A stretch of 64,000 nucleotides of DNA, taken from Streptomyces aurantiacus (GTDB taxonomy: Bacteria > Actinomycetota > Actinomycetes > Streptomycetales > Streptomycetaceae). How positions within the stretch are numbered: the first letter of the stretch is position 1; every line of letters starts with the position of its first letter. The position numbers were made by a program, and so were the translations under genes. Of the stretch, positions 10,257 through 13,436 are shown piece after piece. The notes under the pieces are model-generated. The model was given only the letters and a program-made list of their open reading frames with translations, did not search any database and was not told the origin of the DNA. The DNA lies in contig NZ_CP114283.1 in assembly GCF_027107535.1 (NCBI RefSeq), positions 1,488,001-1,552,000 of the forward strand. The letters are read 5' to 3'.

Positions 10257-10733
10257 ATGAGATGTAACCGACTCGGAATCGGCGCGGCGTTAGCCGCAGG
10301 CACCCTCGCCGCAGGCCTGGCGCTCGCGCCGGGCGCCGCGGCCGTCGTCCCCCAGTCCGCCACCATCATCGCCGACTGCGGCACCTACGGCGGCGGTGAA
10401 GCCACCCTCACGGCCACCCAGAACGGCACCCAGGCCACCATCACCCTCAGCTCCTCCGAGATCACCTCCCCGCTCGCCCTCGCCCAGGACTCGATCGCGT
10501 CCACGCTCACGCTGTCCAAGGCGAGCGGTGGCACGACAGCCTTCACGGGCACCAAGAACCCGGCGATGGCCGCGGGTGACGGTGTCTCGGTCGGCCCGCT
10601 GACCGGCACTGTCGCAGCCGGCGACAGCCTTGATGCCTTCGGTGGTTCCCTGAAGATGGTGATCTTCGGGTTCATCACCGTGACCTGCACGGCGGAGGGG
10701 CCGCAGTCGCCGGGCCCGTTCGTGTTCGAGTGA
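10257..10733 (+). CDS. Small secreted protein of the WxL-like locus
   Basis: A 158-residue protein with a clear Sec signal peptide (MRCNRLGIG, hydrophobic core to about residue 27, AAA-V cleavage region). The mature part is rich in Thr, Ser, Gly and beta-strand-like repeats and has one Cys near each end (ADCGTY, TVTCTAEG), which suggests a single disulphide-locked beta domain. I do not recognise a named family. Its place directly before a WxL-like protein and a DUF916 protein suggests a cell-surface partner. Ribosome site AGGGAAGGGA is well placed. A strong hairpin follows, so it may be transcribed separately from the next gene. Confidence 0.75.
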   Translation: MRCNRLGIGAALAAGTLAAGLALAPGAAAVVPQSATIIADCGTYGGGEATLTATQNGTQATITLSSSEITSPLALAQDSIASTLTLSKASGGTTAFTGTKNPAMAAGDGVSVGPLTGTVAAGDSLDAFGGSLKMVIFGFITVTCTAEGPQSPGPFVFE

Positions 10734-10771
10734 GCGCAGTGACGTAATTTCCCCCCACGAACAGAGCCGAG

Positions 10772-10812
10772 CACGGACCGGTGCCGCCCGCGCGCAGCGG
10801 CACCGGTCCGTG
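10772..10812 (+). terminator. Strong hairpin between first and second secreted genes
   Basis: Perfect 15-bp stem CACGGACCGGTGCCG / CGGCACCGGTCCGTG with an 11-base loop, beginning 39 bases after the stop. It separates gene 1 from gene 2 of the locus. Confidence 0.8.
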
Positions 10813-10859
10813 TGCTGTCGCCTCCCGTAACTGCCGCACAGGGATGGGAAGTTGACAGA

Positions 10860-10878
10860 AACTGATGGGCCATCAGTT
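10860..10878 (+). promoter_or_regulatory. Palindromic operator candidate, second copy (AACTGATGG-G-CCATCAGTT)
   Basis: Perfect 9-bp arms around one central G, just after a TTGACA hexamer (10852-10857) and 112 bases before the WxL-like gene start. Core GATGG-N-CCATC resembles the GACGG-N-CCGTC site at 10108. No convincing -10 box at normal spacing was found, so the promoter assignment is tentative. Confidence 0.55.
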
Positions 10879-10989
10879 GGCGCGTAATGGTTCCATTGAC
10901 TTTTCACACAACCCGCACATCAATGACCTCCTGGCGGCGCAGAAGAACGCGGAAGAGCCGCTGCGCCCACATCCTCAGGAGGGGCACAC

Positions 10990-12315
10990 ATGGGTTCAGG
11001 AACCCGAAGACGCCATCGCTGGGCGGCACTTCTCGGAGCGACCGCACTCTCGGTCACCGCGGGAGGCGCACTCGCCTGCCCCGCGAGCGCGGAACCCCAG
11101 CAGGTCGACTTCGCCACGCACTGCGTACCGCCGCCCATCGCGGGCATCCCCCCGATCGACGGCACCACCACGGCCAGGATCACGGTGGACAACGCCGCGC
11201 CCAAGGTCGGCGACACCGTCACCGTCACGTACACGGTGGTCAAGCCGGCGGCGAGCAACCCGGTCGACATCGCCCTGCCCGCCGACATCATGACGCCCAC
11301 CGGCAAGGTCACCCTCGGTGGCGTGCAGACCGGTGCCGTCACGGTCACGGGCCCGAAGAAGAACGACCCGGTACCAGGGAAGGGGGCCTTCCCGTCGTTC
11401 TCGATGACCGGCACCTTCACGGTCACCACACCCGGCGCGATCACCCTTTCGCCCGGCGACTACAACATCCACACCAGCTACCTCCTGGAGCTGGACACCC
11501 CGTGCACGGTCACCAGCCCGCCCGCCCCGGTCTCCGAGACGGTCACCGCGACGGACGGCGGACAGACCAACAACCGTGCCATCAGCCTCGGTTCGGCCTC
11601 CGGCAAGCCCGGTGACAGCGTGACCGTCACCGGAACGAACTTCGCACCCGGCGCCACCGTCACCCTCGCGGGGCGGGCCGGGGCCGCGCAGACGGCGGAC
11701 AAGGCCGGCGCCACCGCGAACGCCCAGGGCGCCTTCAGCGGCACCCTGGCCGTCAGCGACAAGGCGACCACCGGAGTCGTGGCGTACGAGGGGAGTGCCT
11801 GGAGCGACGACAAGGGGGCGGGTCCCGCCGCCTATGTCGTCATCGACGACACGCCTCTCCCCGAAGGCAGCCAGAAACTCAACTCCTCGGTCAAAGCAGG
11901 GACGTTGTCCATGACCCAGGCCGGTGACACCGTCGAACTCGCGGCGGTCGACTACGGCAAGGGCGGGTTCTCCCGCGGCTCCCTGCAGACGGTGACCGTC
12001 AAGGACTTCCGCGGCGGACCCGCGGGCTGGTCCCTGACCGGCAAGGTCACCGACTTCACCGGTCCCGGCGGCGCGAAGATCGACGCGGGCAAGCTCGGCT
12101 GGACCCCGGTCTGCGGCACCAAGGCCGGCAGCCCGAGCACCTGCCGGCCCGGCTCGCCCGGTGCGGTCGGCAGCGCGGGAGCGACTCTGGCGTCCGCTCC
12201 CAACGGGACGCTCACCGGTGGTGAGTTCACCGTCGACGCCCGGCTCTCGCTGAACGTCCCGGCGTTCACCCCGCCCGGTTCCTACTCCGGCGTGCTGACG
12301 CTGACGCTCACCTGA
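10990..12315 (+). CDS. Secreted protein with C-terminal WxL-like domain
   Basis: A 441-residue exported protein: signal peptide ending near PASA-EPQ (about residue 34), an N-terminal beta domain with a Cys pair (THCVPPP, TPCTV), an IPT/Ig-like segment (GKPGDSVTVTGTNFAPGATV, about residues 200-230), and a C-terminal region resembling WxL domains: VKDFRGGPAGWSLTGKV, then LGWTP, then a terminal SYSGVLTLTL strand. In low-GC Gram-positives WxL domains bind the cell wall and cooperate with DUF916 proteins; the next gene encodes one, which supports the assignment. The N-terminal GSGTRRRHRW stretch is strongly basic. Ribosome site AGGAGGGG. Individual domain names rest on pattern recall. Confidence 0.75.
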   Translation: MGSGTRRRHRWAALLGATALSVTAGGALACPASAEPQQVDFATHCVPPPIAGIPPIDGTTTARITVDNAAPKVGDTVTVTYTVVKPAASNPVDIALPADIMTPTGKVTLGGVQTGAVTVTGPKKNDPVPGKGAFPSFSMTGTFTVTTPGAITLSPGDYNIHTSYLLELDTPCTVTSPPAPVSETVTATDGGQTNNRAISLGSASGKPGDSVTVTGTNFAPGATVTLAGRAGAAQTADKAGATANAQGAFSGTLAVSDKATTGVVAYEGSAWSDDKGAGPAAYVVIDDTPLPEGSQKLNSSVKAGTLSMTQAGDTVELAAVDYGKGGFSRGSLQTVTVKDFRGGPAGWSLTGKVTDFTGPGGAKIDAGKLGWTPVCGTKAGSPSTCRPGSPGAVGSAGATLASAPNGTLTGGEFTVDARLSLNVPAFTPPGSYSGVLTLTLT

Positions 12316-12407
12316 TCTCTCGTCAGCAGGCACTTTCCATCGGTGGGCAGGGCGCGCACCCGCCCGCCCACCTCGTCCGTCCGACTCGCCATCGGGGGTC
12401 CGCACCC

Positions 12408-13436
12408 ATGCGCAAGCCGTTCCTCTTCCTCCTGCTGCTGTTCCTCGCCCTGGCCGGGGCACCCGCGCACGCCGCCGACAACGGCAGCTGGTCCGTCTTC
12501 CCCGTGTCGTCGGAACTCGCCTCGCGGCCCTACTTCCATCTCTCCGCCGACCCGGGCGCGACCCTCCAGGACAAGGTCACCGTCGCCAACAAGACCGGTC
12601 GGCCCCTGACGTTCCGCCTCTACGCGGCCGACGCCTACAACACCGCGCGGGACGGCGGGTTCGCCGTCCGCACCTCGAAGGAGAAACAGCGGGGCGTGGG
12701 CGCCTGGGCGAAGCCCGCCAAGGACCGGGTCGAGGTGTCCGCGCACGGCAAGGTCACCGTGCCGTTCACGATCCGGGTGCCCGAGACGGCCGAACCGGGC
12801 GATCACCCCGGTGCACTGGTCGCCCTGGACGAGCGGATCGACCCGGGAGAGGGCGCGGTCGAGGTCGGTGTGCAGCGGGCCGTCGGCGCCCGGATCTACC
12901 TGCGGGTGGGCGGGCCGACCGTACCGGCCGTCGCCGTGGAGAAGGTCCGCATCAGCCACCACCAGCCCCTGGTCCCGGGCATCGGCGACAGCACGGCCAC
13001 TGTCTCGTACACGCTCCGCAACACCGGCAACGTCACCCTCGATCCCGAGGTGCGGCTGAGGGCGGAAGGGCTCTTCGGCCGTGAGCTGCTCTCCCGGGAC
13101 CTGGCCAAGGTCCCCTCGGAGCTGCTTCCCGGGCAGACGGTACGGCTCACCGAGCCCTGGCACGGCGCCCCCCAACTCGACTGGGGCGACGTGACGTTGA
13201 CGGTCAGCGCACGCGACACCCGCGAGTCGTCGAGCACCTCGTTCTTCGCACTGCCGTGGCTCATGGCGGTGGTGCTGGGAGCGGGAATCGCGGCCGCGGT
13301 GGTCGTGACCCGCGTCAGAGGGCGTCGGGACCGCGCTCACCCGTCCGTACCCGAACCACCGTCTCCACCGGCACGGCCCACACCTTTCCGTCGCCGATCT
13401 TCCCCGTCTGCGCGGCCTTCACGATCGCCTCGATGA
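12408..13436 (+). CDS. DUF916 (WxL-interacting) membrane-anchored protein
   Basis: A 342-residue protein: signal peptide ([20 protein letters not shown]), a DUF916-like domain ([42 protein letters not shown]-like segment) over about residues 25-150, a second beta domain with the DPEVRL and TLRNTGNVT strands, one membrane segment ([19 protein letters not shown], about 283-302) and a basic, Pro/Ser/Arg-rich cytoplasmic tail. This matches proteins that hold WxL proteins at the wall. The last 122 bases overlap glnK on the other strand, so the tail after RVRGRRDR is antisense to glnK and may be an accidental read-through extension. Confidence 0.82.

Follow-up and report, generated by a model that had tools for sequence, protein, structure and literature searches.

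In the genome of Streptomyces aurantiacus (GCF_027107535.1, 9.9 Mb), a stretch of 64,000 nucleotides (contig NZ_CP114283.1, positions 1,488,001–1,552,000; hereafter the window) carries three adjacent open reading frames (ORFs), P1, P2, and P3, described in an earlier note as a WxL/DUF916-like cell-surface locus of exported proteins. The three ORFs are indeed present and each begins with a signal-peptide-like N-terminus, as judged by eye. P2 is likely a surface protein that P3 holds, and the two represent a high-GC relative of the wall-attachment system of lactic acid bacteria. More specifically, they are probably an actinobacterial version of the WxL-WxLIP pair and act as a surface display device of two components, in which P3 clamps the WxL domain of P2 and P2 presents two Ig-like domains. 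Both proteins would be exported; the C-terminal helix of P3 would retain it in the cell membrane, with DUF916 and a second Ig-like domain extending into the wall. Through DUF916, probably by way of a donated beta strand, P3 would clamp the C-terminal WxL-like domain of P2 and hold P2 at the wall with no covalent bond, while P2 would present its N-terminal domain (P2N) and a neocarzinostatin-like domain (P2M). This proposal builds on the domain identities of the two proteins, their conserved pairing, the exchangeable passengers of actinobacterial WxL proteins, and a second locus in which the same parts come with LPXTG-type ends.

P3 exceeded the gathering score of the Pfam model PF06030 (36.8 bits against 27.3), in agreement with its earlier reading as a DUF916 protein, and was the sole Pfam-level DUF916 protein of the genome. 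A profile of 26 P3 relatives matched the WxL-interacting protein EfmWxLIP1 (PDB 9i25, 9i1y) with an E-value of 1.4e-7 in the DUF916 part only; the single P3 sequence gave an E-value of about 0.5. P3 shares with this protein the DUF916/PGBD domain (by profile), a following beta-type region, and a C-terminal helix. The membrane anchor proposed for P3 is seen as a C-terminal hydrophobic stretch followed by basic residues, as read from the sequence with no transmembrane prediction program. The second domain of P3 gave no DUF3324 match at E ≤ 1 and weak matches to DUF7507 and other Ig-type models (PF24346 under its cut-off). The NQIDKxxxYFDLK motif is also absent from the P3 family, which has an RPYFxL-type sequence at the matching place.

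Judging by its sequence, the end of P2 is a homologous, divergent WxL-like domain and not a canonical dual-motif member. WxL domains are defined by two Trp-x-Leu motifs, with DxRG preceding the first (Siezen et al. 2006, PMC1534035). P2 matched the Pfam WxL model PF13731 at residues 329–371 with 17.9 bits (E 0.0033), and its isolated C-terminal domain with 19.9 bits (E 8e-4). Of the two profile matches anticipated in the earlier note, that of P3 to DUF916 was above the cut-off, and that of P2 to WxL did not reach the gathering score of 25. A six-frame search of the whole genome with the Pfam WxL model found nothing. Among 26 actinobacterial WxL members, 15 matched PF13731 at E ≤ 0.1 (best 1.8e-6), and one more protein (L153) scored 49 bits, over the cut-off. 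In an alignment of 19 actinobacterial WxL domains (A2), with motifs counted by eye, the D and R of DxRG and the Trp of the first motif were invariant (DFRG...GWSL in P2), while the Leu of this motif was present in 13 domains and replaced by Ala or Val in 6. The reading of GWSL (W347) as a WxL motif thus holds together with DxRG, but LGWTP (W371), placed beside it in the earlier note, is not the second motif; the place of that motif is the very C-terminal end, and P2 reads LTLTL there. The Trp of LGWTP belongs to a separate LxW feature found in 17 of the 19 domains, and the Trp of the C-terminal second motif was found in none of the 19. A Paenibacillus WxL protein accepted by Pfam (30.1 bits) has Tyr at this place.

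Homology was also indicated by profile-profile comparison. The actinobacterial WxL alignment matched Bacillota WxL domains in hhalign with 96.2% (E 2.5e-9, 141 columns) and with 95.5% in a second setting, the target consisting of four Paenibacillus domains, of which one passes Pfam, one scores 20.8 bits, one is annotated as WxL, and one was taken by position. A narrower, Streptomyces-only alignment gave 75.7% and 58.7%, and the other domain pairs in the comparison reached at most 1.3%. P2M matched neocarzinostatin-like proteins adjoining DUF916 with 95.8% over 65 columns. In the AlphaFold model of P2, the two displayed domains had a pLDDT of about 72–95 overall; by ten-residue block, the values were 83–92 (residues 41–160) and 74–77 (161–190) in P2N and 80–95 (201–280) in P2M. 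The WxL core was the least confident folded part (about 61–78), and residues 289–314, ahead of this core, were disordered. The disorder and the low confidence of the WxL domain in P2 modelled alone are weakly consistent with a sandwich dependent on a strand from a partner.

The pairing of P2 and P3 is conserved. Among 61 relatives, Pfam-level DUF916 was found in 32 and a WxL domain (profile A2) in 31; both were present in 29 genomes, DUF916 only in three (G002, G008, and G021, all of the LPXTG type described below), WxL only in two (G028, G030), and neither in 27. This co-occurrence, whose survey in actinobacteria the earlier note had suggested, is beyond chance (Fisher test, 9e-12). Of 222 loci fetched with the WxL domain of P2, 80 were kept, all from Streptomyces; P2 was present in 80, P3 in 79 (the contig of the 80th ends just after P2), and GlnK in 64. 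In a sample of Actinomycetota, DUF916 was encoded in 33 of 396 genomes and 22 of 236 genera. A WxL ORF stood beside DUF916 in 52 of 63 loci (62 actinobacterial and one from Paenibacillus); the profile behind this count had been iterated on these very ORFs and matched no shuffled ones. The distances of WxL and DUF916 domains correlated (Mantel r 0.81, 36 pairs). One WxL-like domain was found in the S. aurantiacus genome (profile A2).

The passengers of WxL vary, as would be the case for an anchor. In a set of 18 actinobacterial WxL proteins encoded beside DUF916, they were purple acid phosphatase (four proteins), HtaA (two), fn3 (two), glycerophosphodiester phosphodiesterase (GDPD), a phosphodiesterase-type enzyme, and Big_3_5 (one each); two were small WxL-only proteins (L163, L164), and no passenger was assigned in five (L148, L149, L152, L153, L159). 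A WxL protein of Streptomyces goshikiensis carries GH43 and a ricin-type lectin. DUF916 and metallophosphatases have been noted near Ang-2 genes (PMC12537917), which is consistent with the phosphatase passengers.

The P2 profile found a second place in the same genome (G000:C2:8719529–8720062, E 5e-29), within the stretch designated L180 (G000:C2:8713000–8726000). Four genes follow each other on the minus strand. The first encodes a P2N protein with an LPQTG end and the second a DUF916 paralogue; then come the genes of a neocarzinostatin-like protein and of a larger one with two P2N domains and an LADTG end. In a single BLASTP comparison, P2N matched the first of the four proteins with an E-value of 7e-11. 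Since P2M is homologous to the neocarzinostatin-like family, P2 unites P2N, a neocarzinostatin-like domain, and WxL in one chain, and the first two are separate proteins in the second locus. A profile of the P2N-LPXTG protein (A7, 236 positions), whose matches were counted without individual checks of their anchor motifs, was found in 105 of 150 Streptomyces genomes; in five of them, the best match ended before position 220. Among the matches listed, a DUF916-type match was located within 2.5 kb downstream in at least 87 of the 105 genomes, and in all five loci examined (L180, L183, L184, L189, L191) DUF916 was followed by a neocarzinostatin-like frame. Within the class, the profile matched 25 of 296 genomes, strongly in 18 of the genus and weakly (E 1e-9 or worse) in 7 others. 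One of the matched loci, from another family (L193), combines a P2N-WxL protein, DUF916, and a neocarzinostatin-like frame; neither DUF916 nor WxL was seen in two stretches with weak A7 matches (L194, L195). Upstream of the LPXTG-type locus (L180:10203–12615, G000:C2 about 8.723–8.726 Mb), ORFs resembling an anti-sigma kinase, a STAS antagonist, and a SigF-type sigma factor were noticed by eye, and control of this locus by stress or sporulation is possible.

These observations raise the alternative that DUF916 of Streptomyces primarily holds cargo, either P2N or the neocarzinostatin-like domain, and that WxL or LPXTG is an exchangeable wall anchor. The second locus, which has all of these parts and no WxL domain, the wide occurrence of P2N-LPXTG proteins upstream of DUF916 in Streptomyces, and the same combination with WxL in another family speak for it. 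On the other hand, in other parts of the phylum the passengers of WxL-DUF916 pairs are quite different, and therefore WxL is the common factor there. Moreover, a difference between DUF916 proteins tracks the WxL domain. An alignment of 69 DUF916 proteins shows this for the segment corresponding to P3 residues 134–165, located after a conserved GDH. It comprised 27–41 residues in 52 of 53 WxL-partnered proteins (the remaining one, L028, is truncated at the end of a contig) and 19–20 residues in all eight LPXTG-partnered proteins, among them the S. aurantiacus paralogue; the sortase-type proteins have 12–13 residues fewer than P3 in the segment. This is as expected if the segment serves WxL binding. 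A long hairpin of DUF916 predicted to complete the WxL sandwich and a 20-residue buttressing loop have been described (Hassan et al. 2023, PMC10599100), and residues 134–165 may be either one. We consider the cargo-holding role rather unlikely. A further reading, for which the chances are slightly less than even, is that a single surface complex of Streptomyces comes in two versions that differ in anchoring. In that of the window, a WxL domain held by DUF916 would be fused to P2N and the neocarzinostatin-like domain. In the other, these two would be separate proteins, with LPXTG-type ends on the P2N ones, and DUF916 would have lost the WxL-binding segment. DUF916 would then be a general organiser of surface complexes rather than a holder of WxL alone, and the segment a natural marker of WxL contact.

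Several points weigh against the proposed clamping of P2 by P3. P2 is under the Pfam WxL cut-off and has no second WxL motif, and the WxL part of its model is too weak for identification by fold. The co-occurrence test counted DUF916 at the Pfam level only, and many Streptomyces have LPXTG-type paralogues below this level. No WxL ORF was found in the stretch seen (flank of at most about 1.5 kb) in 11 of the 63 DUF916 loci (L011, L022, L029, L030, L038, L044, L045, L052, L055, L058, L063), three of which have an LPXTG partner. Descent of the species alone could yield the correlation of WxL and DUF916 distances. The segment is also long (28–38 residues) in all eight DUF916 proteins with no partner seen nearby, and its shortening may be one event, since all eight LPXTG-partnered proteins come from one genus and, by appearance, one lineage. 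Finally, the helix of Bacillota WxLIP has been considered unlikely to reside in the bacterial membrane, with insertion into the host membrane proposed instead (Hassan et al., PMC10599100), while Siezen et al. (PMC1534035) called the DUF916 protein membrane-anchored.

P1 is best regarded as a neighbour with its own history, and we do not judge it part of the P2-P3 system. The earlier impression that it belongs to no recognised family was borne out: no Pfam family matched at E ≤ 1, and NCBIfam matches were weak and far under their cut-offs. Its AlphaFold model is a confident beta sandwich (pLDDT 86.4), and structure searches matched generic sandwiches with no clear relative. Its inclusion in the locus, which implied one three-part surface complex of P1, P2, and P3, finds some support in the presence of P1 in 66 of the 80 Streptomyces loci. 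However, P1 occurred in 30 of the 61 relatives (two weak matches), eight of which lack Pfam-level DUF916; of six examined among these eight, it was found at the same place in two, beside reordered glnK-amtB-era in two, and elsewhere in two. Eleven stretches surrounding P1 were fetched from genomes that do not have it next to P2-P3. In four (L166, L168, L172, L176), cda and era flank P1, whether or not glnK-amtB is also present; in two (L167, L178), it stands beside glnK-amtB-era in changed order; and in five (L169, L170, L171, L173, L177), it occupies other places. Conversely, P2-P3 are found between cda and era with no P1 in L174 and L175. Therefore, the presence of P1 and that of P2-P3 vary independently. 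The P1 profile matched none of the P2 and P3 domains in profile comparison, and P1 is divided from P2 by a very strong hairpin with no T run (10771–10813), possibly the P1 terminator; the P1–P2 gap (10734–10990) folds with −106.2 kcal/mol (z −2.8). Altogether, a three-part complex appears very improbable.

That P2 is a beta-xylosidase, the label of most named NCBI homologues (among 120 listed of 850), can be practically dismissed, since Pfam and NCBIfam scans found no glycoside hydrolase domain in P2, while in the S. goshikiensis protein the same WxL domain is linked to GH43 and ricin-type domains, a fusion through which the name may have spread via the shared anchor.

The csc/WxL clusters of Bacillota, as presented in PMC1534035 and PMC10599100, likewise encode an exported DUF916 protein with a C-terminal helix beside a large WxL-ended protein. 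DxRG before the first WxL and variable passengers, lectin- or glucanase-like in some members of both phyla, are further common features. The loci L003–L006, from another family of the order with genomes of 10.5–11.9 Mb, resemble these clusters by two WxL ORFs around DUF916, whereas the window locus has one WxL protein. P2 also differs by the lost Trp of the second motif and by other displayed domains, and no small LPxTG gene of the CscD type was seen in the window locus. Among actinomycetes, the wall proteins CwpA, CwpB, and CwpG of Actinoplanes missouriensis (PMC13251363) similarly carry sortase signals, and CwpG is neocarzinostatin-like; this is a lead only, and the terms DUF916 and WxL are absent from the main text of that paper.

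WxL proteins have been described as almost entirely confined to Lactobacillales and Bacillales (PMC10599100). Among the papers listed in literature searches on WxL or DUF916 in actinobacteria and Streptomyces, none concerned such a system, and within these searches the high-GC version is little described, as the earlier note had supposed; in NCBI, however, some homologues are already named "WxL domain-containing" or "WxL protein peptidoglycan domain-containing". Our results show that DUF916, usually with an adjacent WxL, recurs in Actinomycetota with phosphatase, phosphodiesterase, glycosidase, or HtaA passengers, and it may therefore be a way of keeping exoenzymes on thick-walled cells. The 2023 account of WxL-DUF916 interaction rested on prediction (Hassan et al., PMC10599100), and the two versions in one Streptomyces genome offer a natural comparison for the part of DUF916 that contacts WxL. 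The analysis could also help to rename the many Streptomyces proteins labelled as beta-xylosidase.

Table 1. Features of the P1–P3 region of the window and of the second, LPXTG-type locus (L180) of S. aurantiacus
Feature	Coordinates	Strand	Remarks
P1	10257–10733	+	158 aa, exported all-beta protein, conserved Cys pair; neighbour
P2	10990–12315	+	441 aa, large WxL-like surface protein
P2N, N-terminal Ig-like domain	11095–11565	+	Residues 36–192, Cys45/Cys172; common to LPXTG-type proteins of second locus
P2M, neocarzinostatin-like Ig domain	11566–11853	+	Residues 193–288
WxL-like C-terminal domain	11866–12312	+	Residues 293–441; PF13731 and profile-profile match
DFRGGPAGWSL, DxRG and WxL signature	12004–12036	+	D339–L349, W347
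P3	12408–13436	+	342 aa, DUF916/WxLIP-type, C-terminal hydrophobic helix
DUF916 (PGBD) domain of P3	12474–12902	+	About residues 23–165; PF06030 match at 38–137, E 4e-9
P3 segment shortened in LPXTG-partnered DUF916	12807–12902	+	Residues 134–165
Second Ig-like region (HBD position) and hydrophobic helix of P3	12903–13313	+	Weak PF24346; sequence reading
P3 3' end antisense to glnK	13315–13436	+	122-nt overlap
P2N protein, LPQTG and helix at end	L180:9285–9986	−	NCBIfam LPXTG_anchor 26.1 bits; Pfam anchor 20.0, at cut-off
DUF916 paralogue	L180:8268–9173	−	41% identical to P3; Pfam only 15.2
Neocarzinostatin-like protein, hydrophobic stretch further on	L180:7093–8256	−	Pfam 26.8 vs 25
Larger protein, two P2N domains, LADTG and helix at end	L180:5744–7138	−	No anchor model match

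Downstream of P2, the 3' end of P3 extends into the convergent glnK, and the tail of P3 is encoded antisense to this gene. The overlap was found in 53 of the 64 loci with both genes, mostly with a length of 107 or 122 nt, and the tail is short in loci lacking glnK, e.g., L071, L086, and L131. Fusions of Era with DUF916 have been reported in certain Streptomyces (PMC10582724); none was seen in 72 loci here. In the window, amtB is located between glnK and era (13650–16121), and in some Streptomyces era follows P3, with 72–132 nt between match ends. Beside DUF916, exported neocarzinostatin-like proteins that contain a CPCVVH-type motif are encountered repeatedly (L011, L025, L027, L029, L030), also outside Streptomyces; that of L011 scored 17.8 in Pfam against a cut-off of 25.

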